A DNA stretch of 64,000 bases from Xestospongia bergquistia (taxonomy: Eukaryota > Porifera > Demospongiae > Haplosclerida > Petrosiidae): NCBI GenBank assembly GCA_963965975.1, contig OZ014413.1, positions 5,590,001 through 5,654,000 of the forward strand, given 5' to 3'. The translations under genes and the position numbers were made by a program. This document shows, one piece after another, positions 26,857-58,676 of the stretch; the stretch's first letter is position 1, and every line of letters starts with the position of its first letter. The notes beneath the pieces were generated by a model. That model had not been told where the DNA came from. It made no database searches and saw only the letters and a list, made by a program, of their open reading frames with translations.

Positions 26857-27447
26857 CAGGGCCGTCGGAAGCAATTTATGATTGGTCCCGTTTTAGGTAT
26901 GGCGCGCGTAGCGCTCCGCGAAAAATTTCTAATTATGCATTCATGGTGTGGTTAATTATTTCATTAATTAATTGATTGAGAACAAAAAATTTATAGGACG
27001 TTTACATTTTCTACAAACTGTAGCAATCACATTGTCTTCACTAGTAATTTCCCAAAGTAAGTCAAGTTATATTCTGACTTTGTAGCAAATTCATTAGCAA
27101 TAACAACAAAATCAAGAGAGTGTAAAATTCTTGTGTACATGTAATGGAAGCAAGCGATTCAATTGAGTATGTGTCATTGTACTTCGCAAATAGCTTTTCA
27201 CTCTTCTTAAAGCACTAAATGAACGCTCACTCATAGCATTAGTTGAGAGCATAACCAAGACCAGCTTAAGAACTGTACAGACTTCTGAGATCAAGCATCT
27301 TGTAACTACTACAATATTCACATACAACGCGTGTTCCACGCCCACAACCACCAATAATAACAATTATTATTATTATTAATTAATTTGTTTTTGCAAAAAA
27401 GCTTGTCCGGCCAAAACCGGAGAACCGGACCTGTTCCGCCGGGCCTG
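26857..27447 (-). mobile_element. hAT DNA transposon, internally deleted
   Basis: About 590 bp with imperfect terminal inverted repeats: left CAGGGCCGTCGGAAG, right (reverse complement) CAGGCCCGGCGGAACAG. GCTATA is repeated directly at both outer edges, consistent with a hAT target duplication. Inside, on the minus strand, lies the end of a hAT transposase: NAMSERSFSALRRVKSYL, then TQLNRLLPLHVHK, the C-terminal dimerisation region. The DDE core is absent. It lies 0.43 kb past the stop of the large SRCR gene. Confidence 0.8.
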
Positions 27448-27877
27448 CTATAAATATATAGACTGTTAACACCAAAGTGTCTAAAGATTAGAGTACAGAT
27501 AATCAAACCTACTGTAGGTATGATCAGTTGAATAAGTCTGCAAAATTGCTACATAGGTGTAAGAAAACAAAAAGTACAAATCAATGGCTATTTCAAAATA
27601 GTTATTTTTCAATTGGTAGGAGTAGCTGACGGGTAATTGATCATGAGAAAAATCATTATTAATAAGGTTTATTTACATTACTTTAATCACCTTAATACAC
27701 TAAAAATGTTGATAATTTCAATGACAACAAAACACAATTAAGTAACCAAAGAAAACAAAAAAATGATTTATAGTTGTAACATTAATATGAAGAAATTTAG
27801 CACCAACAATCAAATAATGTTGTGTGTTTTTCACTTTTTAAAAAGGTTAGCGTAACTTAGAAAAAGAGGAATATTCA
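27448..27877 (-). other. 3' flank / UTR of the large SRCR gene
   Basis: No ORF of note. A possible AATAAA poly(A) signal on the minus strand lies at 27668-27673, about 205 bases past the stop. The matching words CACTTTTTAAAAAGGT just past the stops of this gene and of the paralogue at 61.7 kb show that their 3' ends share ancestry. Confidence 0.4.
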
Positions 27878-28293
27878 TTATTTTATCTCATCATAGATGT
27901 TCTCTACATTTTCATAATCAGACTCTTCATGAACAGTACCTAAAAATCCATAAGCTGGATTATCATAAGTAGCTTCTACATCAGAAAGATCTTCTCGATT
28001 GCCTAAATTAGAGCCTTGCTGTCTAGATACCTGTACATTGGGGTTATGAGCAGAAAGAGTTGTAAAAGAGGTCAGTGCAACAGATGTGTTCGGATGTCTG
28101 CCTTGATGTGGCCTAGATGAACCTGCTTTAGTTATTGTTTCAGTAGTTTCATGAGAAGTGTTGCTACTTCTAGCATTTCGTCTCTTCCATTTCTTTCCAA
28201 TAGTAACAACGTTTATATAGCAAACAAAACCCACGATAATTATTACGAAAACAGAACCAGTTGTACCACCAATTAGTACAACTATGTTTGACG
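27878..28293 (-). CDS. last exon: membrane segment and tyrosine-rich tail
   Basis: From a TTTTTAG acceptor it reads SNIVVLIGGTTGS, then VFVIIIVGFVCYINVV (membrane), then the basic stop-transfer KKWKRRN. The cytosolic tail has a polar middle and a conserved end: DNPAYGFLGTV, SDYENVENIYDEIK, stop. NPAY fits the NPxY class, which binds PTB domains or endocytic adaptors. YENV and YDEI resemble SH2-binding or ITAM-like sites; YENV and YDEI are only 5 residues apart, closer than in a canonical ITAM. The paralogue at 61.7 kb keeps NPAY, DYDN and SYEEV at equivalent places, which argues for constraint. Confidence 0.88.
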
Positions 28294-31200
28294 CTAAAAA
28301 AACATTAAGTAATTGTAATTATAATATAGAGTTATAGCATTGCTCTGATAAAGGAAGTAATCAATAAATATATATATGTATGGGGCGCCGTTTTTTAAAA
28401 ACCTAAATAGTTGATACATATTTCATTTATGCTGACAATTTATAAATCCTACAATAAATATAATAAAAATGAACACAGATTCATAAACGCACGTGGGAAT
28501 TTATAAATGATATTAGAGATTTGTAAAGACTGTTACGAATTTATAATATAAATAGATGTAAGAATTTATAAATACTGTTGAGAACTTATAAAAATTGCTA
28601 GGAATTTATAAATCAGTAGGGATTTATAAATACAGCAGTTAAAAATCTCTAACATCATTTATAAATTCCCATGTGCATTTATAAATCTTCATTCGTATTT
28701 ATTATATTTATTTTAGAATTTAGTACATAATTAATTACATATAAACTATATTCACAAACGGCGCTCCATATGCATTTATATTATATGTATATATTTATAT
28801 ATATATAAATATTATATGTAGTATGTATGTATATATATAGTTATTCACTAATGTTATATATCATAGTTCATACTTTAGTATTGACTTACAAGCAGTGGTA
28901 GGAAGAGCAGTAGTAATATTGTTGTGACATGTAGTTCTTAATGTTGATACTGATGATAAATTCCTTGGATTACCTACAAATGTAATGTGACCTCATTACA
29001 ACATGAAATATGTAGTTATGTTATGATATCTGTGTGTGGCTTTATCTCATAAAAATACATATGGATATTATTTTAACTATAAATTTCTTAGGCATATCCT
29101 TTTATTAAACAACAACTAATTTAAGAGGCATTTATAATATTTTTACACAAGATAATACTATAATTTTGATTATTTTTATTTAGAAGAGTCAACAAGTTTT
29201 AACAACATGTGTATTTCCAACTTACTACATTGAATTGTGACATCTTCAGAATGACTACATCCTTGATAAGAACTAGTAGGACAACTCTGACATGAACCCA
29301 AACAGGAAAAACTGCTACTACAACCTAAGTTACTCATCCAAATATGTTGAGATGAACCACCAGACCTATAGCAAAAATAGTAGACTTCCAGTATAATCTA
29401 TTGTACTAAACATACAAAGGAAGATGATTATAACTTGTATAGTTTGAATATCCCAGTTGTTTACAGAGAACAAGTGCATCATTAGAATCAAATCCATCAT
29501 TGCATATTGTTCCCCACTGTCCATTACAATAGACTTCAACACGTCCTTCATTAGAATAATTTCCTCCCTGAAGACGTATCATACCAGGAAAGGGATTACT
29601 GTTCCAAATCCTTGTAGAATCTAAATTACAGTAAATTTAGAAGTTATACGATAATGATAATATTAAAACTCACAGCAGGACACAGTACCATCATAAGAGT
29701 TAGTGTTAGTACATCCACTATCAATGATAGTAGAGTAGGAACATTGTAGGATAGTGAGATAGTCATTGTTAGTACAGTTGACATCATCCAGTAACATTGG
29801 ACTGTAGTCAGTGCCATAACTGAAATATTAACAAATAACTATTTATGTCTCAAAAGACAATTTTAAGAAACTAACCTCACTAATCCAGCTCTAGAGTAAC
29901 TTGATGCTCCAGTATATCCCAATTGATGACAGATGACATCAGCTTCGTATTGACTGTAGGAGGTATCATCACAGATATTACCCCATTGTCCATTGATATA
30001 GATCTGTACTATTCCATAGTAATAGGAAGATAAGATGTGTCCATTACGATAAAAACGTATAGTACCAAAACCAATATTGCTAAAAGAAACTATTTTGACA
30101 AATAACAAAACAATGATGTTACTAATGAAAGTCAACTACTTGAGATTACAGATTATATGACAAACCTTTCAACCATCCAATGCAATAATATAATTACTTA
30201 CAAAATAATCCATAACATGTAGTCTTGGAATTAGAAGGCTTTAAATATCTACTACTGTAAACTAAAAAATACAATTATGATAATGATAGTAATTAAATCA
30301 TATTAAACAATTAACATGAAAACTTACTACATGTAACAGTAACATCTTCAGTGTGGTTACAACTAGTTAGTGAAGTTGATGGACAAGAATTACTAGTACC
30401 ATGACATGTGTCAGAGGAAGAACTAGACATGTTTGTACTCCAAATTGGTTGACTGGAATTACCGGGCCTGAACGAATCACAAATAATGCAACACCATTTT
30501 AATGCATAATAACCAAATTAATCAAAACATAGAATTTTAAATGATTCCAAATAATTAATATTTTGCTTCTTACAGGCTGAGATGATCATAATTATAGTAA
30601 TAGTTATATCCCAGTTGTTTACAGATAGTTTGAGCATTAGTAGAATTAAATCCGTCATTACATATTGTTCCCCACCGTCCATTACAATAGAGCTCAACAC
30701 GTCCTTCATTAGAATAATTTCCTCCCTGAAGACGTATCATACCAGAGAAAGGATTACTGTTCCAGATCCTAGTGCTATCTGTAAAACATGTAGCAAGTGC
30801 TAAGGATATATTTATGGACTCACAGCAGTACACTGTGGCATCATAAGAGTTAGTATTATTACATCCACTATCAATGTATGTAGAGAATGAACACTGAAAT
30901 ATAGTAAGGTAATTGCTACTAGCACAGTCGAGGTCATCAATCTTCATAGATAAAGTATCAGTGCCATAACTAAACAGACATAATATAAAGCATGATTATT
31001 AAATAATTCTAACCTCACTAATCCAGCTCTAGAGTAACTTGATGCTCCAGTATATCCCAATTGATGACAGATGACATTAGCTTCAGTAGAACTGTAGTAG
31101 GAATCATCACAGATATTACCCCATCCATTACTGTAAAAGACCCTCACAATACCATAGTAATAGGATGATGACATATACCCATTACGATATAAAATTATAG

Positions 31201-34200
31201 CACCATTTTGAGCAACATCAGCTAAATTATAAAAGATTATCATGCTCTAATTTCTAACTGAGAGGATTACAATATATAGTCAATACACATGCATGTGTAT
31301 TGACTACATATGGTAATCCTAGTTAATAAACTTATTTAACAAGCTTATAATAATCACCTTACACGATAATAATATTACTTACAAATTAATCCAGAACAAG
31401 TAGTTTTTGAATTAGAAGGCTTTGAATATGAACTGCTATATACTAAAGAATAAAATAATGATAACTAGAAATAATAGATTATTTATAAAAAATTAATTTT
31501 TTAAAATATAACATCTTACTACATGTGACAGTAATATCTTCATAGTGAGTACAACTAGTTATTGAAGTTGATGGACAGGAATTTCTTGTACCATAACATG
31601 TGTCAGAGGATGAACTAGACATGTATGTACTCCAAATTGGTTGACTGGAAGTACCAGACCTAAATAATAGACAAATAACTTCAGATAAGTTGTTAGAGAT
31701 GCTATTGTGACAGTCACATTGAAAATACTTAACCACTTGTTAAACATTTAATAAATAACTTTTAATGGTTTTGATGATAGTAAAACTGTAGAAGGCTAAA
31801 TAGTAAGCTAGCCTTGAAAGTCAATTAGTGATAACATTCAGGCTATGCTCACAGTAGCGTCCAAGTGAAATTAATGATTCTTTTATGTGTTGGCAGTGAA
31901 GGATGTGGTTAATGTTTCATATTGTTGTATATAACAATAGAATAAAATGATACAAGTGGACATACAAACATAACACATGATCCAAAACAATTATACGACG
32001 GTCAAGCAAGGTAAAACAATTTCACTGTAGTAAATAAACTACTTCATACTTAAACATTTGCTATAGATTAGTACTTTGATAATTAGTACTTACAGACTTA
32101 AGTGATCATATCTATGGTAGTAATTATATCCCAGTTGTTTACAGATAGTTTGAGCATCAGTAGAACTAAATCCATTATCACATATTGTTCCCCACTGTCC
32201 ATTACAATAGACCTCAACACGTCCTTCATTAGAATAATTTCCTCCCTGAAGACGTATCATACCAGAGAAAGGATTACTATTCCAGATCCTAGTGGTATCT
32301 GTAAAACATGTAGCAAGTGCTAAGGATATATTTATGAACTCACAGCAGTACACAGTGGCATCATAAGAGTTAGTATTATTACATCTACTATCAATGTATG
32401 TAGAGAATGAACACTGAAATATAGTAAGGTAGTTGCTACTAGCACAGTTGAGGTCATCCATCCTCATTGGCAGAGAGTCAGTTCCATAACTAAGCAGAAA
32501 TATTTAAACCCTAATTTATATTTATGATTATTAGTTCTAACCTCACTAATCCAGCTCTAGAGTAACTTGATGCTCCAGTATATCCCAATTGATGACAGAT
32601 GACATTAGCTTCAGCAGAATTGTAGTAGTAGTCATAACAGATATTGCCCCATTTGTTATTGTAATAAACCCTCACAATTCCATAATAATAAGATGATGAG
32701 GCAGACTCATTACGAGATAGAATAATAGCACCATTTTGAGCTCCTTCGGCTAAATGATAAAAGATTATCATACACTAATTGCTGACTGAATGGATTATCA
32801 TATATAGTGAATACACATGTTGACAAGATTTTGTAACTGAACTGACACAATAACATAGTTACTTACAAAGTAATCCATAACATGTAGTCTTGGAATTAGA
32901 AGGCTTTAAATATCTACTACTGTAAACTAAAGAATACAAATATTATAATAAGTTAACCTTTGTAATTAAATCTTATTAAAAATTAACATGAAAACTTACT
33001 ACATGTAACAGTAACATCTTCAATGTGGTTACAACTAGTTAGTGAAATTGATGGACAAGAATTACTAGTACCATGACATGTGTCAGAGGAAGAACTAGAC
33101 ATGTTTGTACTCCAAATTGGTTGACTGGAATTACCGGGCCTGAACGAATTACAAATAATGCAACACCATCTTAATGCATGATAACCAAATTAATCAAAAC
33201 ATAGAATTTTAAATGATTCCAAATAATTTATATTTTGCTTCTTACAGGCTGAGATGATCATAATTATAGTAATAGTTATATCCCAGTTGTTTACAGATAG
33301 TTTGAGCATCAGTAGAATTAAATCTGTCATTACATATTGTTCCCCACTGTCCATTACAATAGAGCTCAACACGTCCTTCATTAGAATAATTTCCTCCCTG
33401 AAGACGGATCATACCAGAAAAAGGATTACTGTTCCAGATCCTAGTGGTATCTGTAAAACATGTAGCAAGTGCTAAGGATATATTTATGGACTCACAGCAG
33501 TACACAGTGGCATCATAAGAGTTAGTATTATTACATCCACTATCAATGTATGTAGAGAATGAACACTGAAATATAGTAAGGTAGTTGCTACTAGCACAGT
33601 TGAGGTCATCAATCTTCATAGATAAAGTATCAGTGCCATAACTAAACAGACATAATATAAAGCATGATTATTAGATAATTCTAACCTCACTAATCCAGCT
33701 CTAGAGTAACTTGATGCTCCAGTATATCCCAATTGATGACAGATGACATTAGCTTCAGTAGAACTGTAGTAGGAATCATCACAGATATTACCCCATCCAT
33801 TACTGTAATAGACCCTCACAATACCATAGTAATAAGATGATGAGGTATACCCATTACGATATAAAATTACAGTACCATTTTGAGCAACATCAGCTAAATT
33901 ATAAAAGATTATCGTAAACTAATTACCTTATAATATTTATAATTGAAGTCATATATAATATAGTCAGACTAATAATTATTTATACTCATATTTATGTCAT
34001 GTTAACTTACAAATTAATCCTAAACAAGTATTTTGTATATTAGAAGGTTTAGACTTAGAAGTGCTGTGAGCTAAAGGAAATATTATACATATTTTGACAT
34101 AATTTATTGATTTTTATTTTGTTTAAATACGAACAAATAATCATATAATACTCAGTTTAAGAATATGTTTTAGATGATGTTAAGATAGTATATGATGTGA

Positions 34201-37200
34201 TAATTATATACATATTGAATTTAAATATTTGCTATAAATGAATTGTAGTTATGCTCAGAGCACTGAAGTAATAATAAAGTAAAGATTACACAAGTCTCCA
34301 AAATATTTTAAAAAATTACGTTAATTTTATTTTATGAGGTGATGACACTAGTTTCCAATATTAAATTCTATTACTTACTACATGTGACAGTTACATCCTC
34401 ATGGTGGGTACAACTAGTTATTGAAGTTGATGGACAGGAATTTCTTGTACCATAACATGAGTCATTGGAAGAACTAGACATGAATTTACTCCAAATTGGT
34501 TGACTAAAACTACCAGATCTATATTAGTGATAGAATAACCTGCATTATAACCTGATATAACCTGATATATAATATTATTGTAATATCAAAATAAAAAATA
34601 TTACAGAATTATTAACACTGAATAATTACTACTTATGCAAACTTACAGGCTGAAATGATCATAATTAAAGTAATTATTATATCCCAGTTGTTTACATATA
34701 GTTTGAGCATTAGTAGAAGTAAATCCATTATCACATATTGTTCCCCATTGTCCATTACAATAGAGCTCAACACGTCCTTCATTAGAATAATTTCCTCCCT
34801 GAAGACGGATCATACCAGAAAAAGGATTACTGTTCCAGATCCTAGTGCTATCTGTAAAACATGCATGTAACTAGTGCTAAGGATATATTTATGGACTCAC
34901 AGCAGTACACAGTGGCATCATAAGAGTTAGTATTAGCACATCCACTATCAATGTATGTAGAGAATGAACACTGAAATATAGTAAGGTAGTTGCTACTAGC
35001 ACAGTTGAGGTCATCCATCTTCATTGGCAGAGAGTCAGTTCCATAACTAAGCAGAAATATTTAAATCCTAATTTATATTAATGAATATTAGTTCTAACCT
35101 CACTAATCCAGCTCTAGAGTAACTTGATGCTCCAGTATATCCTAATTGATGACAGATGACATTAGCTTCAGCAGAATTGTAGTAGTAATCATCACAGATA
35201 TTGCCCCATTGGTTATTGTAATAAACCCTCACAATTCCATAATAATAAGATGATGAAGCAGACTCATTACGAGATAGAATAATAGCACCATTTTGAGCAC
35301 CTTCGGCTAAATGTAAAAGATTATCATACACTAATTGCTGACTGAATGGATTATCATATATAGTCAATACATATGTTGACGAGATTTTCTAACTGAACTA
35401 ACACAATAACATAGTTACTTACAAAATAATCCATAACATGTAGTCTTGGAATTAGAAGGCTTTAAATATCTACTACTGTAAACTAAAGAATGATAATGAG
35501 TTAACCTTTGTAATTAAATCTTATTAAAAATTAACATGAAAACTTACTACATGTAACAGTAACATCTTCAGTGTGGTTACAACTAGTTAGTGAAGTTGAT
35601 GGACAAGAATTACTAGTACCATGACATGTGTCAGAGGAAGAACTAGACATGTTTGTACTCCAAATTGGTTGACTGGAATTACCGGGCCTGAACGAATCAC
35701 AAATAATGCAACACCATCTTAATGCATGATAACCAAATTAATCAAAACATAGAATTTTAAATGATTCCAAATAATTTATATTTTGCTTCTTACAGGCTGA
35801 GATGATCATAATTATAGTAATAGTTATATCCCAGTTGTTTACAGATAGTTTGAGCATCAATAGAATTAAATCCGTCATCACATATTGTTCCCCACCGTCC
35901 ATTACAATAGAGCTCAACACGTCCTTCATTAGAATAATTTCCTCCCTGAAGACGGATCATACCAGAAAAAGGATTACTGTTCCAGATCCTAGTGCTATCT
36001 GTAAAATATGTAGCAAGTGCTAAGGATACATTTATGGACTCACAGCAGTACACAGTGGCATCATAAGAGTTAGTATTACATCCATAATCAATGTATGTAG
36101 AGAATGAACACTGAAATATAGTAAGGTAGTTGCTACTAGCACAATTGAGGTCATCCATCCTCGTTGGCAGAGAGTCAGTTCCATAACTAAGCAGAAATTT
36201 TTAAACCCTAATTTATTTATGATTATTAGTTCTAACCTCACTAATCCAGCTCTAGAGTAACTTGATGCTCCAGTGTATCCCAATTGATGACAGATGACAT
36301 TAGCTTCAGCAGAATTGTAGTAGTAATCATCACAGATATTGCCCCATTTGCTATTGTAATAAACCCTCACAATTCCATAATAATAAGATGATGAGGCAGA
36401 CTCATTACGAGATAGAATAATAGCACCATTTTGAGCACCTTCGGCTAAATGATAAAAAATTATCATACACTAATTGCTGACTGAATGGATTATCATATAT
36501 AGTCAATACATATGTTGACGAGATTTTATAACTGAACTAACGAAATAACATAGTTACTTACAACGTAATCCATAACATGTAGTCTTGGAATTAGAAGGCT
36601 TTAAATATCTACTACTGTAAACTAAAGAATGATAATGAGTTAACCTTTGTAATTAAATCATATTAAAAATTAACATGAAAACTTACTACATGTAACAGTA
36701 ACATCTTCAGTGTGGTTACAACTAGTTAGTGAAGTTGATGGACAAGAATTACTAGTACCATGACATGTGTCAGAGGAAGAACTAGACATGTTTGTACTCC
36801 AAATTGGTTGACTGGAATTACCGGGCCTGAACGAATCACAAATAATGCAACACCATCTTAATGCATGATAACCAAATTAATCAAAACATAGAATTTTAAA
36901 TGATTCCAAATAATTTATATTTTGCTTCTTACAGGCTGAGATGATCATAATTATAGTAATAGTTATATCCCAGTTGTTTACAGATAGTTTGAGCATCAAT
37001 AGAATTAAATCCGTCATCACATATTGTTCCCCATCGTCCATTACAATAGAGCTCAACACGTCCTTCATTAGAATAATTTCCTCCCTGAAGACGGATCATA
37101 CCAGAAAAAGGATTACTGTTCCAGATCCTAGTGCTATCTGTAAAACATGCATGTAACTAGTGCTAAGGATATATTTATGGACTCACAGCAGTACACAGTG

Positions 37201-40200
37201 GCATCATAAGAGTTAGTATTACATCCATAATCAATGTATGTAGAGAATGAACACTGAAATATAGTAAGGTAGTTGCTACTAGCACAATTGAGGTCATCCA
37301 TCCTCGTTGGCAGAGAGTCAGTTCCATAACTAAGCAGAAATTTTTAAACCCTAATTTATTTATGATTATTAGTTCTAACCTCACTAATCCAGCTCTAGAG
37401 TAACTTGATGCTCCAGTGTATCCCAATTGATGACAGATGACATTAGCTTCAGCAGAATTGTAGTAGTAATCATCACAGATATTGCCCCATTTGCTATTGT
37501 AATAAACCCTCACAATTCCATAATAATAAGATGATGAGGCAGACTCATTACGAGATAGAATAATAGCACCATTTTGAGCACCTTCGGCTAAATGATAAAA
37601 AATTATCATACACTAATTGCTGACTGAATGGATTATCATATATAATCAATACATATGTTGACGAGATTTTATAACTGAACTAACGAAATAACATAGTTAC
37701 TTACAATGTAATCCATAACATGTAGTCTTGGAATTAGAAGGCTTTAAATATCTACTACTGTAAACTAAAGAATGATAATGAGTTAATCTTTGTAATTAAA
37801 TCATATTAAAAATTAACATGAAAACTTACTACATGTAACAGTAACATCTTCAGTGTGGTTACAACTAGTTAGTGAAGTTGATGGACAAGAATTACTAGTA
37901 CCATGACATGTGTCAGAGGAAGAACTAGACATGTTTGTACTCCAAATTGGTTGACTGGAATTACCGGGCCTGAACGAATCACAAATAATGCAACACCATC
38001 TTAATGCATGATAACCAAATTAATCAAAACATAGAATTTTAAATGATTCCAAATAATTTATATTTTGCTTCTTACAGGCTGAGATGATCATAATTATAGT
38101 AATAGTTATATCCCAGTTGTTTACAGATAGTTTGAGCATCAATAGAATTAAATCCGTCATCACATATTGTTCCCCATCGTCCATTACAATAGAGCTCAAC
38201 ACGTCCTTCATTAGAATAATTTCCTCCCTGAAGACGGATCATACCAGAAAAAGGATTACTGTTCCAGATCCTAGTGCTATCTGTAAAACATGTAGCAAGT
38301 GCTAAGGATACATTTATGGACTCACAGCAGTACACAGTGGCATCATAAGAGTTAGTATTACATCCATAATCAATGTATGTAGAGAATGAACACTGAAATA
38401 TAGTAAGGTAGTTGCTACTAGCACAGTTGAGGTCATCCATCCTCGTTGGCAAAAAGTCAGTTCCACAACTAAGCAGAAATATTTAAACCCTTAATTTATA
38501 TTTATGATTATTAGTTCTAACCTCACTAATCCAGCTCTAGAGTAACTCGATGCTCCAGTGTATCCCAATTGATGACAGATGACATTAGCTTCAGCAGAAT
38601 TGTAGTAGTAATCATCACAGATATTGCCCCATTTGTTATTGTAATAAACCCTCACAATTCCATAATAATAAGATGATGAGGCAGACCCATTACAAAATAG
38701 AATAATAGCACCATTTTGAGCACCTTCAGCTAAATGATAAATGACTATCATACACTAATTGCTGACTGAATGGATTATCATATATAGTCAATACATATGT
38801 TGACGAGATTTTATAACTGAACTAACGAAATAACATAGTTACTTACAATGTAATCCATTACATGTAGTCTTGGAATTAGAAGGCTTTAAATATCTACTAC
38901 TGTAAACTAAAGAATGATAATGAGTTAATCTTTGTAATTAAATCATATTAAAAATTAACATGAAAACTTACTACATGTAACAGTAACATCTTCAGTGTGG
39001 TTACAACTAGTTAGTGAAGTTGATGGACAAGAATTACTAGTACCATGACATGTGTCAGAGGAAGAACTAGACATGTTTGTACTCCAAATTGGTTGACTGG
39101 AATTACCGGGCCTGAACGAATCACAAATAATGCAACACCATCTTAATGCATGATAACCAAATTAATCAAAACATAGAATTTTAAATGATTCCAAATAAAT
39201 TATATTTTGCTTCTTACAGGCTGAGATGATCATAATTATAGTAATAGTTATATCCCAGTTGTTTACAGATAGTTTGAGCATCAATAGAATTAAATCCGTC
39301 ATCACATATTGTTCCCCACCGTCCATTACAATAGAGCTCAACACGTCCTTCATTAGAATAATTTCCTCCCTGAAGACGGATCATACCAGAAAAAGGATTA
39401 CTGTTCCAGATCCTAGTGCTATCTGTAAAACATGTAGCAAGTGCTAAGGATACATTTATGGACTCACAGCAGTACACAGTGGCATCATAAGAGTTAGTAT
39501 TACATCCATAATCAATGTATGTAGAGAATGAACACTGAAATATAGTAAGGTAGTTGCTACTAGCACAGTTGAGGTCATCCATCCTCGTTGGCAGAGAGTC
39601 AGTTCCATAACTAAGCAGAAATTTTTAAACCCTAATTTATTTATGATTATTAGTTCTAACCTCACTAATCCAGCTCTAGAGTAACTTGATGCCCCAGTGT
39701 ATCCCAATTGATGACAGATGACATTAGCTTCAGCAGAATTGTAGTAGTAATCATCACAGATATTGCCCCATTTGTTATTGTAATAAACCCTCACAATTCC
39801 ATAATAATAAGATGATGAGGCAGACTCATTACGAGATAGAATAATAGCACCATTTTGAGCACCTTCGGCTAAATGATAAAAAATTATCATACACTAATTG
39901 ATGACTGAATGGATTATCATATATAGTCAATACATATGTTGACGAGATTTTATAACTGAACTAACGAAATAACATAGTTACTTACAACGTAATCCATAAC
40001 ATGTAGTCTTGGAATTAGAAGGCTTTAAATATCTACTACTGTAAACTAAAGAATGATAATGAGTTAACCTTTGTAATTAAATCATATTAAAAATTAACAT
40101 GAAAACTTACTACATGTAACAGTAACATCTTCAGTGTGGTTACAACTAGTTAGTGAAGTTGATGGACAAGAATTACTAGTACCATGACATGTGTCAGAGG

Positions 40201-46200: not shown

Positions 46201-49200
46201 AATAATTTCCTCCCTGAAGACGGATCATACCAGAAAAAGGATTACTGTTCCAGATCCTAGTGCTATCTGTAAAACATGTAGCAAGTGCTAAGGATACATT
46301 TATGGACTCACAGCAGTACACAGTGGCATCATAAGAGTTAGTATTAGTACATCCATAATCAATGTATGTAGAGAATGAACATTGAAATATAGTAAGGTAG
46401 TTGCTACTAGCACAGTTGAGGTCATCCATCCTCGTTGGCAAAAAGTCAGTTCCACAACTAAGCAGAAATATTTAAACCCTTAATTTATATTTATGATTAT
46501 TAGTTCTAACCTCACTAATCCAGCTCTAGAGTAACTTGATGCTCCAGTGTATCCCAATTGATGACAGATGACATTAGCTTCAGCAGAATTGTAGTAGTAA
46601 TCATCACAGATATTGCCCCATTTGTTATTGTAATAAACCCTCACAATTCCATAATAATAAGATGATGAGGCAGACCCATTACAAAATAGAATAATAGCAC
46701 CATTTTGAGCACCTTCAGCTAAATGATAAATGATTATCATACACTAATTGCTGACTGAATGGATTATCATATATAGTCAATACATTATGTTGACGAGATT
46801 TTCTAACTGAACTAACGAAATAACATAGTTACTTACAATGTAATCCATTACATGTAGTCTTGGAATTAGAAGGCTTTAAATATCTACTACTGTAAACTAA
46901 AGAATGATAATGAGTTAACCTTTGTAATTAAATCATATTAAAAATTAACATGAAAACTTACTACATGTAACAGTAACATCTTCAGTGTGGTTACAACTAG
47001 TTAGTGAAGTTGATGGACAAGAATTACTAGTACCATGACATGTGTCAGAGGAAGAACTAGACATGTTTGTACTCCAAATTGGTTGACTGGAATTACCGGG
47101 CCTGAACGAATCACAAATAATGCAACACCATCTTAATGCATGATAACCAAATTAATCAAAACATAGAATTTTAAATGATTCCAAATAAATTATATTTTGC
47201 TTCTTACAGGCTGAGATGATCATAATTATAGTAATAGTTATATCCCAGTTGTTTACAGATAGTTTGAGCATCAATAGAATTAAATCCGTCATCACATATT
47301 GTTCCCCACCGTCCATTACAATAGAGCTCAACACGTCCTTCATTAGAATAATTTCCTCCTTGAAGACGGATCATACCAGAAAAAGGATTACTGTTCCAGA
47401 TCCTAGTGCTATCTGTAAAACATGTAGCAAGTGCTAAGGATACATTTATGGACTCACAGCAGTACACAGTGGCATCATAAGAGTTAGTATTAGTACATCC
47501 ATAATCAATGTATGTAGAGAATGAACATTGAAATATAGTAAGGTAGTTGCTACTAGCACAATTGAGGTCATCCATCCTCGTTGGCAAAAAGTCAGTTCCA
47601 CAACTAAGCAGAAATATTTAAACCCTTAATTTATATTTATGATTATTAGTTCTAACCTCACTAATCCAGCTCTAGAGTAACTCGATGCTCCAGTGTATCC
47701 CAATTGATGACAGATGACATTAGCTTCAGCAGAATTGTAGTAGTAATCATCACAGATATTGCCCCATTTGTTATTGTAATAAACCCTCACAATTCCATAA
47801 TAATAAGATGATGAGGCAGACCCATTACAAAATAGAATAATAGCACCATTTTGAGCACCTTCAGCTAAATGATAAATGATTATCATACACTAATTGCTGA
47901 CTGAATGGATTATCATATATAATCAATACATATGTTGACGAGATTTTATAACTGAACTAACGAAATAACATAGTTACTTACAATGTAATCCATTACATGT
48001 AGTCTTGGAATTAGAAGGCTTTAAATATCTACTACTGTAAACTAAAGAATGATAATGAATTAACCTTTGTAATTAAATCATATTAAAAATTAACATGAAA
48101 ACTTACTACATGTAACAGTAACATCTTCAGTGTGGTTACAACTAGTTAGTGAAGTTGATGGACAAGAATTACTAGTACCATGACATGTGTCAGAGGAAGA
48201 ACTAGACATGTTTGTACTCCAAATTGGTTGACTGGAATTACCGGGCCTGAACGAATCACAAATAATGCAACACCATCTTAATGCATGATAACCAAATTAA
48301 TCAAAACATAGAATTTTAAATGATTCCAAATAATTTATATTTTGCTTCTTACAGGCTGAGATGATCATAATTATAGTAATAGTTATATCCCAGTTGTTTA
48401 CAGATAGTTTGAGCATCAATAGAATTAAATCCGTCATCACATATTGTTCCCCACCGTCCATTACAATAGAGCTCAACACGTCCTTCATTAGAATAGTTTC
48501 CTCCCTGAAGACGGATCATACCAGAAAAAGGATTACTGTTCCAGATCCTAGTGCTATCTGTAAAATATGTAGCAAGTGCTAAGGATACATTTATGGACTC
48601 ACAGCAGTACACAGTGGCATCATAAGAGTTAGTATTACATCCATAATCAATGTATGTAGAGAATGAACACTGAAATATAGTAAGGTAGTTGCTACTAGCA
48701 CAATTGAGGTCATCCATCCTCGTTGGCAGAGAGTCAGTTCCATAACTAAGCAGAAATTTTTAAACAATAATTTATTTATGATTATTAGTTCTAACCTCAC
48801 TAATCCAGCTCTAGAGTAACTTGATGCTCCAGTATATCCCAATTGATGACAGATGACATTAGCTTCAGCAGAATTGTAGTAGTAATCATCACAGATATTG
48901 CCCCATTTGTTATTGTAATAAACCCTCACAATTCCATAATAATAAGATGATGAGGCAGACTCATTACGAGATAGAATAATAGCACCATTTTGAGCACCTT
49001 CGGCTAAATGATAAAAAATTATCATACACTAATTGCTGACTGAATGGATTATCATATATAGTCAATACATATGTTGACGAGATTTTATAACTGAACTAAC
49101 GAAATAACATAGTTACTTACAATGTAATCCATAACATGTAGTCTTGGAATTAGAAGGCTTTAAATATCTACTACTGTAAACTAAAGAATGATAATGAGTT

Positions 49201-52200
49201 AACCTTTGTAATTAAATCATATTAAAAATTAACATGAAAACTTACTACATGTAACAGTAACATCTTCAGTGTGGTTACAACTAGTTAGTGAAGTTGATGG
49301 ACAAGAATTACTAGTACCATGACATGTGTCAGAGGAAGAACTAGACATGTTTGTACTCCAAATTGGTTGACTGGAATTACCGGGCCTGAACGAATCACAA
49401 ATAATGCAACACCATCTTAATGCATGATAACCAAATTAATCAAAACATAGAATTTTAAATGATTCCAAATAAATTATATTTTGCTTCTTACAGGCTGAGA
49501 TGATCATAATTATAGTAATAGTTATATCCCAGTTGTTTACAGATAGTTTGAGCATCAATAGAATTAAATCCGTCATCACATATTGTTCCCCACCGTCCAT
49601 TACAATAGAGCTCAACACGTCCTTCATTAGAATAATTTCCTCCCTGAAGACGGATCATACCAGAAAAAGGATTACTGTTCCAGATCCTAGTGCTATCTGT
49701 AAAACATGTAGCAAGTGCTAAGGATACATTTATGGACTCACAGCAGTACACAGTGGCATCATAAGAGTTAGTATTAGTACATCCATAATCAATGTATGTA
49801 GAGAATGAACACTGAAATATAGTAAGGTAGTTGCTACTAGCACAGTTGAGGTCATCCATCCTCGTTGGCAAAAAGTCAGTTCCACAACTAAGCAGAAATA
49901 TTTAAACCCTTAATTTATATTTATGATTATTAGTTCTAACCTCACTAATCCAGCTCTAGAGTAACTCGATGCTCCAGTGTATCCCAATTGATGACAGATG
50001 ACATTAGCTTCAGCAGAATTGTAGTAGTAATCATCACAGATATTGCCCCATTTGTTATTGTAATAAACCCTCACAATTCCATAATAATAAGATGATGAGG
50101 CAGACCCATTACAAAATAGAATAATAGCACCATTTTGAGCACCTTCAGCTAAATGATAAATGATTATCATACACTAATTGCTGACTGAATGGATTATCAT
50201 ATATAATCAATACATATGTTGACGAGATTTTATAACTGAACTAACGAAATAACATAGTTACTTACAATGTAATCCATTACATGTAGTCTTGGAATTAGAA
50301 GGCTTTAAATATCTACTACTGTAAACTAAAGAATGATAATGAGTTAACCTTTGTAATTAAATCATATTAAAAATTAACATGAAAACTTACTACATGTAAC
50401 AGTAACATCTTCAGTGTGGTTACAACTAGTTAGTGAAGTTGATGGACAAGAATTACTAGTACCATGACATGTGTCAGAGGAAGAACTAGACATGTTTGTA
50501 CTCCAAATTGGTTGACTGAAATTACCGGGCCTGAACGAATCACAAATAATGCAACACCATCTTAATGCATGATAACCAAATTAATCAAAACATAGAATTT
50601 TAAATGATTCCAAATAAATTATATTTTGCTTCTTACAGGCTGAGATGATCATAATTATAGTAATAGTTATATCCCAGTTGTTTACAGATAGTTTGAGCAT
50701 CAATAGAATTAAATTCGTCATCACATATTGTTCCCCACCGTCCATTACAATAGAGCTCAACACGTCCTTCATTAGAATAATTTCCTCCTTGAAGACGGAT
50801 CATACCAGAAAAAGGATTACTGTTCCAGATCCTAGTGCTATCTGTAAAACATGTAGCAAGTGCTAAGGATACATTTATGGACTCACAGCAGTACACAGTG
50901 GCATCATAAGAGTTAGTATTAGTACATCCATAATCAATGTATGTAGAGAATGAACATTGAAATATAGTAAGGTAGTTGCTACTAGCACAATTGAGGTCAT
51001 CCATCCTCGTTGGCAAAAAGTCAGTTCCACAACTAAGCAGAAATATTTAAACCCTTAATTTATATTTATGATTATTAGTTCTAACCTCACTAATCCAGCT
51101 CTAGAGTAACTCGATGCTCCAGTGTATCCCAATTGATGACAGATGACATTAGCTTCAGCAGAATTGTAGTAGTAATCATCACAGATATTGCCCCATTTGT
51201 TATTGTAATAAACCCTCACAATTCCATAATAATAAGATGATGAGGCAGACCCATTACAAAATAGAATAATAGCACCATTTTGAGCACCTTCGGCTAAATG
51301 ATAAATGATTATCATACACTAATTGCTGACTGAATGGATTATCATATATAATCAATACATATGTTGACGAGATTTTCTAACTGAACTAACGAAATAACAT
51401 AGTTACTTACAATGTAATCCATTACATGTAGTCTTGGAATTAGAAGGCTTTAAATATCTACTACTGTAAACTAAAGAATGGTAATGAGTTAACCTTTGTA
51501 ATTAAATCATATTAAAAATTAACATGAAAACTTACTACATGTAACAGTAACATCTTCAGTGTGGTTACAACTAGTTAGTGAAGTTGATGGACAAGAATTA
51601 CTAGTACCATGACATGTGTCAGAGGAAGAACTAGACATGTTTGTACTCCAAATTGGTTGACTGGAATTACCGGGCCTGAACGAATCACAAATAATGCAAC
51701 ACCATCTTAATGCATGATAACCAAATTGATTAAAACATAGAATTTTAAATGATTCCAAATAATTTATATTTTGCTTCTTACAGGCTGAGATGATCATAAT
51801 TATAGTAATAGTTATATCCCAGTTGTTTACAGATAGTTTGAGCATCAATAGAATTAAATCCGTCATCACATATTGTTCCCCACCGTCCATTACAATAGAG
51901 CTCAACACGTCCTTCATTAGAATAGTTTCCTCCCTGAAGACGGATCATACCAGAAAAAGGATTACTGTTCCAGATCCTAGTGCTATCTGTAAAATATGTA
52001 GCAAGTGCTAAGGATACATTTATGGACTCACAGCAGTACACAGTGGCATCATAAGAGTTAGTATTAGTACATCCATAATCAATGTATGTAGAGAATGAAC
52101 ACTGAAATATAGTAAGGTAGTTGCTACTAGCACAATTGAGGTCATCCATCCTCGTTGGCAGAGAGTCAGTTCCATAACTAAGCAGAAATTTTTAAACAAT

Positions 52201-55200
52201 AATTTATTTATGATTATTAGTTCTAACCTCACTAATCCAGCTCTAGAGTAACTTGATGCTCCAGTATATCCCAATTGATGACAGATGACATTAGCTTCAG
52301 CAGAATTGTAGTAGTAATCATCACAGATATTGCCCCATTTGTTATTGTAATAAACCCTCACAATTCCATAATAATAAGATGATGAGGCAGACTCATTACG
52401 AGATAGAATAATAGCACCATTTTGAGCACCTTCGGCTAAATGATAAAAAATTATCATACACTAATTGATGACTGAATGGATTATCATATATAGTCAATAC
52501 ATATGTTGACGAGATTTTCTAACTGAACTAACGAAATAACATAGTTACTTACAACGTAATCCATTACATGTAGTCTTGGAATTAGAAGGCTTTAAATATC
52601 TACTACTGTAAACTAAAGAATGATAATGAGTTAACCTTTGTAATTAAATCATATTAAAAATTAACATGAAAACTTACTACATGTAACAGTAACATCTTCA
52701 GTGTGGTTACAACTAGTTAGTGAAGTTGATGGACAAGAATTACTAGTACCATGACATGTGTCAGAGGAAGAACTAGACATGTTTGTACTCCAAATTGGTT
52801 GACTGGAATTACCGGGCCTGAACGAATCACAAATAATGCAACACCATCTTAATGCATGATAACCAAATTAATCAAAACATAGAATTTTAAATGATTCCAA
52901 ATAAATTATATTTTGCTTCTTACAGGCTGAGATGATCATAATTATAGTAATAGTTATATCCCAGTTGTTTACAGATAGTTTGAGCATCAATAGAATTAAA
53001 TCCGTCATCACATATTGTTCCCCACCGTCCATTACAATAGAGCTCAACACGTCCTTCATTAGAATAATTTCCTCCTTGAAGACGGATCATACCAGAAAAA
53101 GGATTACTGTTCCAGATCCTAGTGCTATCTGTAAAACATGTAGCAAGTGCTAAGGATACATTTATGGACTCACAGCAGTACACAGTGGCATCATAAGAGT
53201 TAGTATTACATCCATAATCAATGTATGTAGAGAATGAACACTGAAATATAGTAAGGTAGTTGCTACTAGCACAATTGAGGTCATCCATCCTCGTTGGCAG
53301 AGAGTCAGTTCCATAACTAAGCAGAAATTTTTAAACCCTAATTTATTTATGATTATTAGTTCTAACCTCACTAGTCCAGCTCTAGAGTAACTTGATGCTC
53401 CAGTATATCCCAATTGATGACAGATGACATTAGCTTCAGCAGAATTGTAGTAGTAATCATCACAGATATTGCCCCATTTGTTATTGTAATAAACCCTCAC
53501 AATTCCATAATAATAAGATGATGAGGCAGACCCATTACAAAATAGAATAATAGCACCATTTTGAGCACCTTCAGCTAAATGATAAATGATTATCATACAC
53601 TAATTGCTGACTGAATGGATTATCATATATAGTCAATACATATGTTGACGAGATTTTCTAACTGAACTAACGAAATAACATAGTTACTTACAATGTAATC
53701 CATTACATGTAGTCTTGGAATTAGAAGGCTTTAAATATCTACTACTGTAAACTAAAGAATGATAATGAGTTAACTTTTGTAATTAAATCATATTAAAAAT
53801 TAACATGAAAACTTACTACATGTAACAGTAACATCTTCAGTGTGGTTACAACTAGTTAGTGAAGTTGATGGACAAGAATTACTAGTACCATGACATGTGT
53901 CAGAGGAAGAACTAGACATGTTTGTACTCCAAATTGGTTGACTGGAATTACCGGGCCTGAACGAATCACAAATAATGCAACACCATCTTAATGCATGATA
54001 ACCAAATTAATCAAAATATAGAATTTTAAATGATTCCAAGTAAATTATATTTTGCTTCTTACAGGCTGAGATGATCATAATTATAGTAATAGTTATATCC
54101 CAGTTGTTTACAGATAGTTTGAGCATCAATAGAATTAAATCCGTCATCACATATTGTTCCCCACCGTCCATTACAATAGAGCTCAACACGTCCTTCATTA
54201 GAATAATTTCCTCCTTGAAGACGGATCATACCAGAAAAAGGATTACTGTTCCAGATCCTAGTGCTATCTGTAAAATATGTAGCAAGTGCTAAGGATACAT
54301 TTATGGACTCACAGCAGTACACAGTGGCATCATAAGAGTTAGTATTAGTACATCCATAATCAATGTATGTAGAGAATGAACACTGAAATATAGTAAGGTA
54401 GTTACTACTAACACAATTGAGGTCATCCATCCTCGTTGGCAGAGAGTCAGTTCCATAACTAATAAGAAATTTTTAAACCCTAATTTATATTTATGATTAT
54501 TAGTTCTAACCTCACTAATCCAGCTCTAGAGTAACTTGATGCTCCAGTATATCCCAATTGATGACAGATGACATTAGCTTCAGCAGAATTGTAGTAGTAA
54601 TCATCACAGATATTGCCCCATTCGTTATTGTAAAAGACCCTCACAATACCATAGTAATAAGATGATGAAGTATACTCATTACGAAACAAGTTAATCGCAC
54701 CATTTTTTAAAGCTATAGTATAATGAAATATTTAATTTGTCTCATGAATTTTATAATTTATTTCGCCACATTGTTTATAACAGAAAGTGTAATAACAGTG
54801 TAGTGAAAAGTGTGAGCATGCTTGTACTGATATATGTATAGTCCTATAGACATAGAGAGTTGTAATAGTCTTTTTAACATAGTATATTTTTTGAATACTG
54901 CTGATCATTCCCTAGTTTCATTGACCAGCATTTATATATAAATATTGATATTATTTATAGAAATTAGACATGCTATTATTAAAAGTATTGATATATATCA
55001 GCTGAATTATAAATGATAGAGCAAAAAAGTATATATAGGTTTGTTACAATAGTAATAGTTTCTGATAAAAGATGTGTTGAATGTAATTATGGATATGAAT
55101 ATCATGAGTAAAACATGATATGACTCACAACAATATAATAATGATATCATTTTGCTATTAATAATATGCATATACTCACTTATTTTTTGATCATTATCTA

Positions 55201-56497
55201 TCTCCAGTTATTACATTAATAGTTAATAAACAAACATTTTATATTAGTTTAATGTACAACTGGTCATTATACTGATCTCTTATAATAATATGACTAAGAT
55301 CACAAATGTTATAAGCATACTATCAACAGTTTTTAATAGTAATTATATAAACAAACAGATGAAATGTCATTAACTGCTTTGTAATCTCAGTCAATGCAGC
55401 TGTACAATTAGACAAAAATACATTAACATAGCAGTACTATATCTTATTATAAATCAATCTAAATTAAAATTAAAAAATAATGGTATAGCATGATCCTAAT
55501 ACCATAAGGAAGCCAAATTTATAATCTTAGATACAATACGTACAATAGCATTAATTTTAAAAAAGGTGTCGTTAATATATTATGATATGAATATTATGAA
55601 TAGACCATGATATGATTTGAAAGTGCAAAAACATAATTATGACATTGTTTTGCTATTAATAACAGACATAAAATCAATTAGTTTTTAATCAATACATATC
55701 TCTTGCTAAACAAATAACCTTATCACGATGATAGTTAATAAACAAAACAAAATCTTTTACATTAGTTTAATATACAATTGTTCATTATACTGGTTTATTA
55801 AAATAATATGATTACGATCACAAAGATTGAAAGCATACTATAGTAAATCTAATATAGTAGTTGTATAAACAAGCAGGTGGAAATATTAACTACTTTGTAG
55901 TCTTACTCAATGCAGCTGTGTGATTAGATAACAATGCATTAAAAAAAACAATACTCTATCTTACTACAAATCAATCTAAATTTTAATGATAATATGGTGG
56001 CAGGATGATCCTATTGCTCATGGTGTGAGTCATATTTATAATTGTATATATAGTGTAGATAATTACTTAAAAAGCTACATTGGAATAATAAATTATTTTG
56101 TCATGTCTTAAGAGAAATTTCTTTTAGTAATGTCCTTCAGTAATGTACGATTTTTGTTAAACACCTCAGTTTAACCAAAATCTTTTACTTACGCTAAGTT
56201 TGGTCACATCAAAGCATACTAAAAAGCTATCATCCTGCCGGAAATCACTCAAGTCTGCAGAAACGTTCCTAGCTAGCAAATAACTAAGCAATTTACTATA
56301 GTCTTTACAATACCACATATAAAATTAGACATTACATAATGATCATTTACCAACTTGCACTAAAGTAAAGTATTCATGCTGTCACTACTGAGACAGCAAG
56401 TTGAAAGATTTGTACACTTACCATATGAAGAGTAAACTGAATAAGTCAATAGAATTGCAAGAAGGAAGAAAGCAGAGTGCTGCTGCTCTTCAGCCAT
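27878..56497 (-). CDS. giant SRCR receptor, 44 SRCR domains
   Basis: Predicted type I membrane protein of about 5,700 residues. Order: signal peptide exon (56422-56497); 21 five-exon units, each with two SRCR domains and a linker; a 22nd pair; a stalk exon (28890-28973); and a membrane plus tail exon (27878-28293). The phases I checked fit: exon A enters phase 1 and leaves phase 2, B 2 to 1, C 1 to 2, D 2 to 1, E 1 to 1. SRCR hallmarks are WGNICDD, EANVICHQLGY and MDDLNC in domain 1, and [19 protein letters not shown] and HTEDVTVTC in domain 2. Each domain is split over two exons, as in group A SRCR domains. Family knowledge: SRCR ectodomains bind microbial or endogenous ligands, and sponge members include aggregation receptors. 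The role here (recognition or adhesion) is inference. Large tandem units may be miscounted in an assembly, so 22 is what this sequence shows. Confidence 0.88.
28382..28768. mobile_element. foldback MITE in intron
   Basis: About 390 bp, with near-complete inverted symmetry. The ends are GGGGCGCCGTTT and, on the other strand, GGAGCGCCGTTTGTG. Inner arms match over about 70 bases (AATAAATATAATAAA, GGGAATTTATAAATGAT and TTAGAGATTT on both strands). The centre holds repeated GAATTTATAAAT words. TA flanks both ends, so a TA target duplication is likely. No ORF. It sits in the intron between the stalk and membrane exons and is absent from the same intron of the paralogue. Confidence 0.85.
28890..28973 (-). 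CDS. juxtamembrane stalk exon
   Basis: An 84-nt exon, phase 1 to 1, encoding SNPRNLSSVSTLRTTCHN and NITTALPTTA. Position, phase and the words LRTTCHN against SKTTCYG of the linker exon suggest it is a diverged exon E. It has an N-glycosylation site (NIT) and Ser/Thr-rich ends suited to a stalk. Confidence 0.8.
28974..30089 (-). repeat. SRCR unit 22 (last pair, diverged)
   Basis: Exons A 29876-30089, B 29674-29819, C 29416-29620, D 29226-29365. Exon A starts FSFSNIGFGTIRFYRNG and has SQYEADVICHQLGY. D carries six closely spaced cysteines (GCSSSFSCLGSCQSCP and onward), unlike the other units. It is much closer to the last pair of the paralogue at 63 kb than to units 1-21, so this pair is old. 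Confidence 0.88.
30090..31221 (-). repeat. SRCR unit 21
   Basis: 1,132 bp. Exon A begins ADVAQNGAIILYRNGYM. It differs from the homogeneous core at many sites (for example VFYSNGWGNICDD) and shares its D and E exons with the core. A transitional unit at the 3' edge of the array. Confidence 0.88.
31222..32749 (-). repeat. SRCR unit 20 (long introns)
   Basis: 1,528 bp because the C-D intron is expanded (about 31662-32092). Exon A is of the SRNE class but has NICYDYYY in place of NICDDYYY, adding a cysteine. Exons D and E (CYGTRNSCPSTSITSC, SNSKTTCSGL) match the degenerate block at 21 kb and the paralogue at 63.9 kb. Confidence 0.88.
32750..33893 (-). repeat. SRCR unit 19
   Basis: 1,144 bp. 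Exon A begins DVAQNGTVILYRNGYT, close to unit 21; exon C has CNDRFNSTDAQT. Domain 1 follows the unit-21 type, and the remainder is core-like, suggesting an exchange inside the unit. Confidence 0.88.
33894..35306 (-). repeat. SRCR unit 18 (edge of homogeneous core)
   Basis: 1,413 bp. Exon A and B are of the SRNE type, but exon D (FMSSSNDSCYGTRNSC) and linker E (HSTSKSKPSNIQNTC) are diverged, and the D-E and E-A introns are longer. Homogenisation appears to stop within this unit. Confidence 0.88.
35307..36444 (-). repeat. SRCR unit 17
   Basis: 1,138 bp. SRNE class exon A, SYGTDSLP exon B, GCNTNSY short form. The 3'-most member of the near-identical core. Confidence 0.9.
36445..37587 (-). repeat. 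SRCR unit 16
   Basis: 1,143 bp. SRNE class. The B-C intron has ACATGCATGTAACTAG in place of ACATGTAGCAAG, a variant shared only with unit 18; this marks exchange between them. Confidence 0.9.
37588..38729 (-). repeat. SRCR unit 15
   Basis: 1,142 bp. FCNG class exon A with SCGTDFLP in exon B (both extra cysteines). Short GCNTNSY form. Confidence 0.9.
38730..39868 (-). repeat. SRCR unit 14
   Basis: 1,139 bp. SRNE class, SYGTDSLP. Carries TGCCCCAG in exon A, as units 9 and 10 do. Confidence 0.9.
39869..41013 (-). repeat. SRCR unit 13
   Basis: 1,145 bp. FCNG class with SCGTDFLP. Private change NSVEANV (A to V) in exon A; ALASCF at the B-C intron shows a private base there. Long GCTNTNSY form. 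Confidence 0.9.
41014..42152 (-). repeat. SRCR unit 12 (recombinant class)
   Basis: 1,139 bp. FCNG exon A joined to the A-B intron and SYGTDSLP exon B of the SRNE class. It therefore has an exon A cysteine without the exon B partner. Exon C has CDGGFNS, shared with unit 11. Confidence 0.9.
42153..43294 (-). repeat. SRCR unit 11
   Basis: 1,142 bp. FCNG class with SCGTDFLP. CDGGFNS in exon C, as in unit 12, so the two neighbours probably share a recent duplication. Confidence 0.9.
43295..44434 (-). repeat. SRCR unit 10
   Basis: 1,140 bp. SRNE class. Exon B has STSIDSGCTNTN where most core units have STYIDYGC; shared only with unit 9. Confidence 0.9.
44435..45573 (-). repeat. SRCR unit 9
   Basis: 1,139 bp. 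SRNE class, nearly the same as unit 10 over the whole length (same STSIDSGC change and same four-base loss after ATTATCATACA in the E-A intron). The closest adjacent pair in the array. Confidence 0.9.
45574..46718 (-). repeat. SRCR unit 8
   Basis: 1,145 bp. FCNG class with SCGTDFLP, long GCTNTNSY form; exon A keeps the SRNE-like AACTTGATGCTCC word, a small mosaic sign. Confidence 0.9.
46719..47864 (-). repeat. SRCR unit 7
   Basis: 1,146 bp. FCNG class with SCGTDFLP. The C-D intron has AAATAAATTATAT, a variant it shares with units 1, 2, 4, 5 and 14. Confidence 0.9.
47865..49003 (-). repeat. SRCR unit 6
   Basis: 1,139 bp. SRNE class; A-B intron with AAACAATAATTTATT, shared with units 3 and 12. 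Short GCNTNSY form. Confidence 0.9.
49004..50148 (-). repeat. SRCR unit 5
   Basis: 1,145 bp. FCNG class with SCGTDFLP, long GCTNTNSY form. Units 4-5-6 and 7-8-9 both run FCNG, FCNG, SRNE. Confidence 0.9.
50149..51293 (-). repeat. SRCR unit 4
   Basis: 1,145 bp. FCNG class with SCGTDFLP. Private change CDDEFNS (G to E) next to a conserved cysteine of exon C. Confidence 0.9.
51294..52435 (-). repeat. SRCR unit 3
   Basis: 1,142 bp. SRNE class, long GCTNTNSY form; AAACAATAATTTATT A-B intron. Confidence 0.9.
52436..53574 (-). repeat. SRCR unit 2 (recombinant class; exon borders worked out)
   Basis: 1,139 bp. Exons A 53367-53574, B 53174-53316, C 52924-53128, D 52678-52817, E 52553-52612; introns of 50, 45, 106, 65 and 117 nt. 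FCNG exon A but SRNE-type A-B intron and SYGTDSLP exon B, so a lone extra cysteine. The coding sum of 756 nt gives 252 residues. Confidence 0.9.
53575..54712 (-). repeat. SRCR unit 1 (first pair)
   Basis: 1,138 bp. Exon A starts after ACTATAG with LKNGAINLFRNEYTSSS and lacks the AEGAQ start of the core, so the 5' edge is diverged only in the first exon. Exon A joins exon 1 as G plus CT, giving Ala. Exon B has LNCVSS (A to V). Confidence 0.9.
54713..56421 (-). other. intron 1 of the large gene, with internal duplication
   Basis: A 1.7 kb AT-rich intron. Two direct copies of about 0.45 kb lie at about 55085-55500 and 55570-56020, with shared words such as TTTTGCTATTAATAA, TAGTTAATAAACAAA and TTAGTTTAATRTACAA. 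No ORF. It is by far the longest intron in the gene, so it may hold regulatory sequence, but no site is recognised. Confidence 0.7.
56422..56497 (-). CDS. exon 1: signal peptide
   Basis: ATG at 56497, then EEQQHSAFFLLAILLTYS and VYSSY, a GTAAGTG donor after 76 nt (phase 1). A hydrophobic core of about 11 residues after a polar start fits a cleaved signal peptide. The start is supported because the phase joins unit 1 exactly and a TGACGTCA element lies just upstream. Confidence 0.85.
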
Positions 56498-58508: not shown

Positions 58509-58676
58509 GAGTATTAACGTTTAGTTATGAATATTTACCAAAATGTACTTGATAAAGACATTTTTCGTGTTAGTGCAGGGAGCTCTTGCAAGGTAATTCT
58601 GTAATTCTTGAACAAGAAGTCAATATGTTTTTAAAGAATGTTGCAGCTACGTATATACTCATGATAAATATATTAT
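58509..58676. repeat. duplicated SRCR flank, copy 3 (first part)
   Basis: Homologous to the upstream flank of the large gene (about 56540-56720). It continues after the hAT insert at 59483. Confidence 0.6.

Follow-up and report, generated by a model that had tools for sequence, protein, structure and literature searches.

A sponge gene predicted to encode a membrane protein with 44 tandem SRCR domains

Gene model and predicted protein

The window that we analyzed is a 64,000-nucleotide stretch of contig OZ014413.1 from the sponge Xestospongia bergquistia (positions 5,590,001 to 5,654,000; GC content 31.6%). Its minus strand carries a large gene of the SRCR family, flanked by damaged SRCR copies. 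We obtained one splice-consistent model for this gene, from an ATG at 56497 to the last base of the stop codon at 27878. All 111 introns have GT-AG borders, the coding sequence has 17,190 nucleotides, and the predicted protein of 5,729 residues has a single stop, at its end. The 112 exons are one signal exon, 22 each of four types (A, B, C, and D), 21 of type E, one last linker exon, and one exon for the membrane segment and tail. Within each unit, exons A and B encode the domain SRCR1, exons C and D encode SRCR2, and exon E encodes a 20-residue linker. A first-pass annotation of the same DNA had proposed one gene with 22 units, 44 domains, about 112 exons, about 5,700 residues, one signal exon, and one NPAY-bearing membrane tail. 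Our exon-by-exon modeling confirmed this architecture, with identical start and stop.

The template for the model was the five exons of one unit, read by eye, and we used blastn to locate the other copies and their splice sites. The gene ends were read in three frames, unusual junctions were inspected by eye, and the complete model was translated. Tandem Repeats Finder, with a longest period of 500, overlooks the array.

Each type of exon has fixed phases (A 1>2, B 2>1, C 1>2, D 2>1, and E 1>1), and the SRCR1 module, the SRCR2 module, and the linker are each phase 1-1. Exon A is 208 bases long (202 in one unit and 214 in another), B is 146 or 143, C is 205, D is 140, and E is 60. In the frame of the model, none of the 109 repeat exons contains a stop codon. 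In the two alternative frames, stops are found in 22 and 22 of the 22 exons for each of A, C, and D, in 4 and 22 of the 22 B exons, and in 21 and 21 of the 21 E exons.

By its Pfam matches, the predicted protein belongs to the SRCR superfamily (PF00530). In a profile search, all 44 of the domains that the first-pass annotation had read as SRCR matched this family, two per unit in all 22 units. Four other families (Hepsin-SRCR, YecR, SapB_2, and DUF7631) were mentioned for the whole protein only, with no stretch passing by itself. No Pfam match to CUB, ZP, or sushi domains was found at E 0.001 across all units and the tail. Just two stretches of the protein exceed our hydropathy threshold (a mean of 1.6 over 19 residues): residues 9-27, which we take, by hydropathy, as the putative signal stretch, and residues 5592-5626.

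We also considered whether the array could be several tandem genes, which is unlikely. With E>A introns of 112-161 bp between units, a gene boundary would have little room. We scanned the array for hydrophobic pieces that begin with ATG, and of the 106 found, 60 have a phase-1 donor; the 60 pieces listed are all one repeated stretch of exon C in the wrong frame, and the next exon requires phase 2. The array has no second membrane exon. The short gaps and the wrong-frame pieces support a single gene. The single end stop, the two hydrophobic stretches, and the lack of a usable internal signal exon agree with the earlier claim that the array contains no internal signal peptide, stop, or membrane exon.

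Table 1. Features of the gene model (positions in the window).
Feature	Position	Strand	Evidence
Exon 1, with the ATG and a stretch resembling a signal peptide, MAEEQQHSAFFLLAILLTYSVYSSY; ends in phase 1	56422..56497	-	gene model, hydropathy
Units 1-17: 85 exons, 34 SRCR domains, mutual identity 95.6-99.6%	35423..54712	-	model, unit comparison, Pfam
Units 18-21: 20 exons, 8 SRCR domains, 79-93% identity to other units	30202..35306	-	model, unit comparison, Pfam
Unit 22: 4 exons, 2 SRCR domains, ~69-71% identity to other units	29226..30089	-	model, unit comparison, Pfam
Last linker exon, with one cysteine	28890..28973	-	gene model
Predicted membrane helix, then the cytoplasmic tail (motifs NPAY, YDNP, YENV, YDEI) and the stop codon	27878..28293	-	model, hydropathy
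AATAAA polyadenylation-like motif 3' of the stop	27668..27673	-	motif match only

Besides the AATAAA motif that follows the stop codon, 14 more are found inside the gene. Intron 1 contains a tandem duplication of about 500 bp (55066-56050; ~72-83% identity in pieces).

Coding constraint, unit exchange, and neighboring sequence

Among units 17-21 (10 pairs), 7,575 aligned exon bases contain 10 gaps (six of one base and four of three bases), while the introns have 77 gaps in 1,882 bases, 69 of them not multiples of three; the intron count leaves out the longer C-D and D-E introns. Because exon lengths vary by multiples of three only, the 1-base exon gaps are probably paired alignment slips.

We also compared nonsynonymous and synonymous differences (pN/pS) between units. 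Across six independent-looking pairs, pN/pS was 0.33-0.60, and the bootstrap interval was below 1 for five of them: units 17 and 22 (0.53, interval 0.41-0.68), 18 and 20 (0.43, 0.25-0.77), 17 and 20 (0.35, 0.20-0.60), 17 and 18 (0.56, 0.35-0.99), and 1 and 17 (0.33, 0.14-0.75). Within units 1-17, pN/pS was 0.35, and pS (0.032) was near the divergence of the introns (0.024). None of the pN/pS comparisons of units supports positive selection. Judging from these comparisons, the reading frame is under constraint. A pseudogene array is unlikely, as the diverged units keep their frames while their introns are rich in indels.

The neighboring SRCR copies, both on the minus strand, serve as a control for the maintenance of the gene. 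The upstream paralogue (61703-64000) is cut by the edge of the window. Its exon C has lost 14 bp, and between its membrane segment and its tail the frame changes by 1 base, close to an A-run. The tail is proline-rich and ends in NPAY/DYDN/YEEV motifs. Downstream of the gene are decayed SRCR exons (21152-24741). Five could be aligned, two with frame-breaking deletions (1 and 40 bp) and three without; the remaining exons are missing or lack a donor, and no tail follows.

The identities among units 1-17 in Table 1 include the introns, and no two of the 22 units are identical, so a simple copying error is unlikely. The longest exact repeat that we found (1,219 bp) is between units 8 and 9, and the list of exact repeats of at least 600 bp has just one other, of 653 bp. 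Units 3-5 differ from units 6-8 at only 5, 5, and 7 positions, as compared to mostly 10-47 for other pairs of units. The block may have been duplicated, or two haplotypes may have been joined here.

The units are mosaics. Among units 2-17 we counted 30 informative two-state sites, and all four combinations occur in 264 of the 435 pairs of sites; leaving repeat mutation aside, this requires 9 or more exchanges. Two-state positions in the array include Phe-Cys/Ser-Arg, Tyr/Cys, Asn/Tyr, and His/Arg. Because the SRCR modules and the linker are all phase 1-1, exchanges would stay in frame. Compared by exon, unit 22 shares 92-96% identity with the final pair in the upstream gene; for units 1-21, the proportion of matching bases is 62-84%. 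Since unit 22 is closer to the upstream gene than to the rest of its own array, the end unit appears to be old and the inner units appear to be expanding.

Recent growth of the array would have come from exchange between units, and we expect the number of units to vary between individuals. The array in DMBT1 behaves similarly: its copy number differs between alleles, and one class of deletions arises at 0.7-2.7% per generation (PMC4851238; here and below, statements about published systems follow excerpts of the cited papers). Such arrays, as the mosaic units and the phase 1-1 layout illustrate, can lengthen or be shuffled without losing the frame. If the number of units does vary between individuals, then the locus is a candidate marker for immune diversity or individuality.

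The sequence around the gene also includes pieces that resemble mobile elements. Just past the 3' end is a match to the dimerization region of hAT transposases (27115-27363, minus strand, E 3.1e-05). Next to the 5' end, the region 57604-60311 is perhaps a transposon: it contains a PHD finger (57857-58084, plus strand, E 3.3e-08) and sub-threshold matches to Ulp1 protease and MULE transposase. A piece of open reading frame at 20793-21065 (minus strand) has no Pfam match at E 1 but looks like part of a Ty1/copia polyprotein. A weak ZU5-like match (13731-14099, minus strand, E 0.006, below our cut-off) falls in one of several unplaced pieces that look coding. Rfam at gathering thresholds and ARAGORN found nothing in the window. 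A scan for bacterial promoters and terminators at exon 1 gave promoters near the shuffle mean and two overlapping terminator-like matches, which is uninformative for an animal gene.

Metal-site residues, cysteines, and tail motifs

To relate the array to the metal-dependent sites of SALSA (DMBT1), we drew the equivalent residues in part from alignments to CD163. In SALSA, site 2 is formed by D1019, D1020, and E1086, site 3 is formed by D1020, D1058, D1059, and N1081, and mutants of site 2 lose binding (PMC7043408). The SRCR1 domains have CDD in 21 of 22 units, the Asp pair before C5 in all 22, and, also in all 22, a Tyr at the position of the Glu. The SRCR2 domains all retain the Glu; 15 of 22 have CDD and none has the Asp pair before C5. 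The two domains of the unit seem to have split a dual metal site, with the Asp pairs in SRCR1 and the site-2 Glu in SRCR2. As SRCR2 keeps this Glu and, in most units, the first Asp pair, we would expect a SALSA-like ligand site in SRCR2. The split thus yields a simple prediction as to which of the two domains binds.

SRCR domains of group A have six conserved cysteines each, and those of group B have eight. The SRCR1 domains here have 6 cysteines in 13 units, 7 in two units, and 8 in seven units. The two extra cysteines tend to occur together (both in 7 units, one in 2, and neither in 13; Fisher p 0.0002), which may reflect shared descent, so we do not claim a disulfide. The SRCR2 domains have 7 cysteines in 21 units, each with 1 more in the next linker, and 9 plus 1 in unit 22. 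Given the odd count in SRCR2 and the single cysteine in the linker, a disulfide between them is plausible: the odd cysteine of SRCR2 may pair with that of the following linker. Group C SRCR domains have seven conserved cysteines with C1 unpaired, and external bonds have been proposed for the extra cysteine (PMC10855680).

The motifs NPAY, DY[ED]N, and Y[DE]E[IV]K are common to the tail of this gene and the tail piece of the upstream paralogue. NPAY and other tyrosine motifs in cytoplasmic tails have endocytic and SH2/PTB roles.

Interpretation and comparison with known SRCR systems

With moderate confidence, we propose that the gene encodes a giant type I SRCR membrane protein, that this protein is a multivalent receptor for scavenging or adhesion that depends on cations and has tyrosine motifs in its tail, and that it was enlarged by phase 1-1 unit exchange. 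The signal peptide would direct the protein to the cell surface. The ectodomain would be a chain of 22 SRCR1-SRCR2-linker units, followed by one membrane helix and the tail. This chain could be a long tether with many binding sites, holding polyanionic ligands from microbes, particles, or the matrix via SALSA/DMBT1-like metal sites, with the strength of binding coming from the repetition of similar sites, and cargo might be taken up, or signaled, via the tail. The protein is probably a many-handed catcher of particles or microbes at the cell surface. It also lends itself to testing whether binding by SRCR proteins grows with the number of repeats, as reported for DMBT1, in which binding of bacteria was 30-40% weaker with 8 domains than with 13 (PMC9038570).

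Several points weigh against this proposal. Its support comes from one kind of evidence, the genomic sequence (as a gene model and a predicted protein), from which we infer the ligand, the uptake, and the disulfide. The full CDD is absent from 7 of the 22 SRCR2 domains, and the match of residues in the array to SALSA numbering is partly assumed. In the gene model, the donor after exon A is non-consensus (GTTAGA in 21 of 22 units and GTTAGT in one), the acceptor at 30089, where unit 22 begins, was picked by hand to fit the phase, and the N-terminal signal stretch is barely above the hydropathy threshold (1.67). As for constraint, the pN/pS of units 19 and 21 (0.60, interval 0.22-2.10) spans 1 and is not different from neutral, and the polymorphic codons in units 2-17 (17 nonsynonymous and 11 synonymous) are weak evidence alone.

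Part of the array might be a product of assembly, with haplotypes joined in tandem and a true gene with fewer units, such as 19. The near-match of units 3-5 to units 6-8 and the 1,219-bp exact repeat fit this idea, and the frame change at the A-run in the neighboring gene could be a sequencing error. However, no pair of units is identical, most other pairs have 10-47 differences, and block matches extend for at most 3 units among offsets 1-10, so we consider this explanation unlikely. We think it very unlikely that there is no single 44-domain chain because transcripts start or end within the array or skip units. Skipping would preserve the frame, given the phase 1-1 modules and linker, and shorter isoforms could also arise from the 14 AATAAA motifs inside the gene. 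On the other hand, the 60 of 106 hydrophobic ATG pieces with a phase-1 donor are all, as listed, wrong-frame copies of exon C, and the array has no second membrane exon. Also, in a cell line expressing DMBT1, splicing was minor and most transcripts had the genomic number of domains (PMC9038570).

Two other explanations accept the gene model and differ as to its function. A putative aggregation receptor from the sponge Geodia cydonium, reportedly an SRCR protein with short consensus repeats, has been considered for cell recognition, and the gene from Xestospongia could likewise be a receptor for cell-cell aggregation or self-recognition, with repeat number and mosaics that differ between individuals. 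A membrane-anchored SRCR chain with a signaling-type tail and mosaic units would suit this role, and the sponge aggregation receptor is reported to be genetically polymorphic (PMC5435793). Unlike the Geodia receptor as titled, the units and tail here have no match to short consensus (sushi) repeats (Pfam, E 0.001), and exposure to microbes elicits a response from SRCR genes in sponges and ctenophores (PMC6208332, PMC11797021); we doubt that aggregation is the function. Or the gene could be a hypervariable receptor driven by exchange, in which in-frame unequal exchange between 22 interchangeable units keeps altering the length of the array and its mix of two-state positions to give an individual-specific tag for binding microbes or recognizing self; one half of an ancestral dual metal site would be in SRCR1 and the other in SRCR2. 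This seems quite improbable. We prefer the multivalent scavenger or adhesion receptor.

The first-pass annotation had also called SRCR proteins with more than about 15-20 domains unusual and this gene the best candidate for an undescribed system in the window. Neither a size beyond the known range nor an undescribed system is supported, as large SRCR proteins were already reported: 7-21 domains in alleles of human DMBT1 (PMC9038570) and 1-51 domains, with up to ~5,981 residues, in Holothuria glaberrima (a 2026 preprint, PMC13228809). The giant proteins of H. glaberrima are comparable in size to the sponge protein, but they have Group A domains and are from an echinoderm. Large SRCR repertoires are reported from sponges, ctenophores, and placozoans (PMC10855680, PMC11797021, PMC6208332). 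We also scanned prokaryotic and viral contig collections with an alignment of 5 of the 22 units, which gave 55 and 35 pattern matches, none of them confirmed; this is uninformative for animals.

Among solved chains, CD163 (M130) is the nearest in sequence, followed by PIT54, CD5L, LOXL2, CD6, and others. CD163 has an SRCR-only ectodomain and one membrane helix, as do other SRCR-only membrane receptors. The prediction for the sponge protein (from the gene model, hydropathy, and Pfam) matches this layout: a signal stretch, an SRCR-only ectodomain, one membrane helix, and a cytoplasmic tail. Unlike CD163, it has 44 domains in near-identical tandem units, and it seems to differ in group and cysteine pattern.

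Like DMBT1 (also known as SALSA or gp340), the sponge protein is a long chain of similar SRCR domains, and the metal-dependent site may be largely recognizable in it, split between SRCR1 and SRCR2. It differs in lacking CUB or ZP matches (E 0.001), in its predicted membrane anchor, and in its two-domain unit with a cysteine-bearing linker, and its number of domains is double that of the largest human allele cited above.

Within the sponges, the Group C SRCR genes of Amphimedon queenslandica (PMC10855680) have seven cysteines, which 21 of 22 SRCR2 domains here may share, judging by count, and they arose by tandem duplication of one- and two-domain units, as here. The GC content, the short introns, and the seven-cysteine SRCR2 domains of the gene would suit a sponge. 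In the Amphimedon cluster, most domains reportedly span three exons and the number of domains is two to six, while the gene from Xestospongia has two exons per domain and 44 domains. It is a very large and recently expanded member of the known SRCR family, not a new system.

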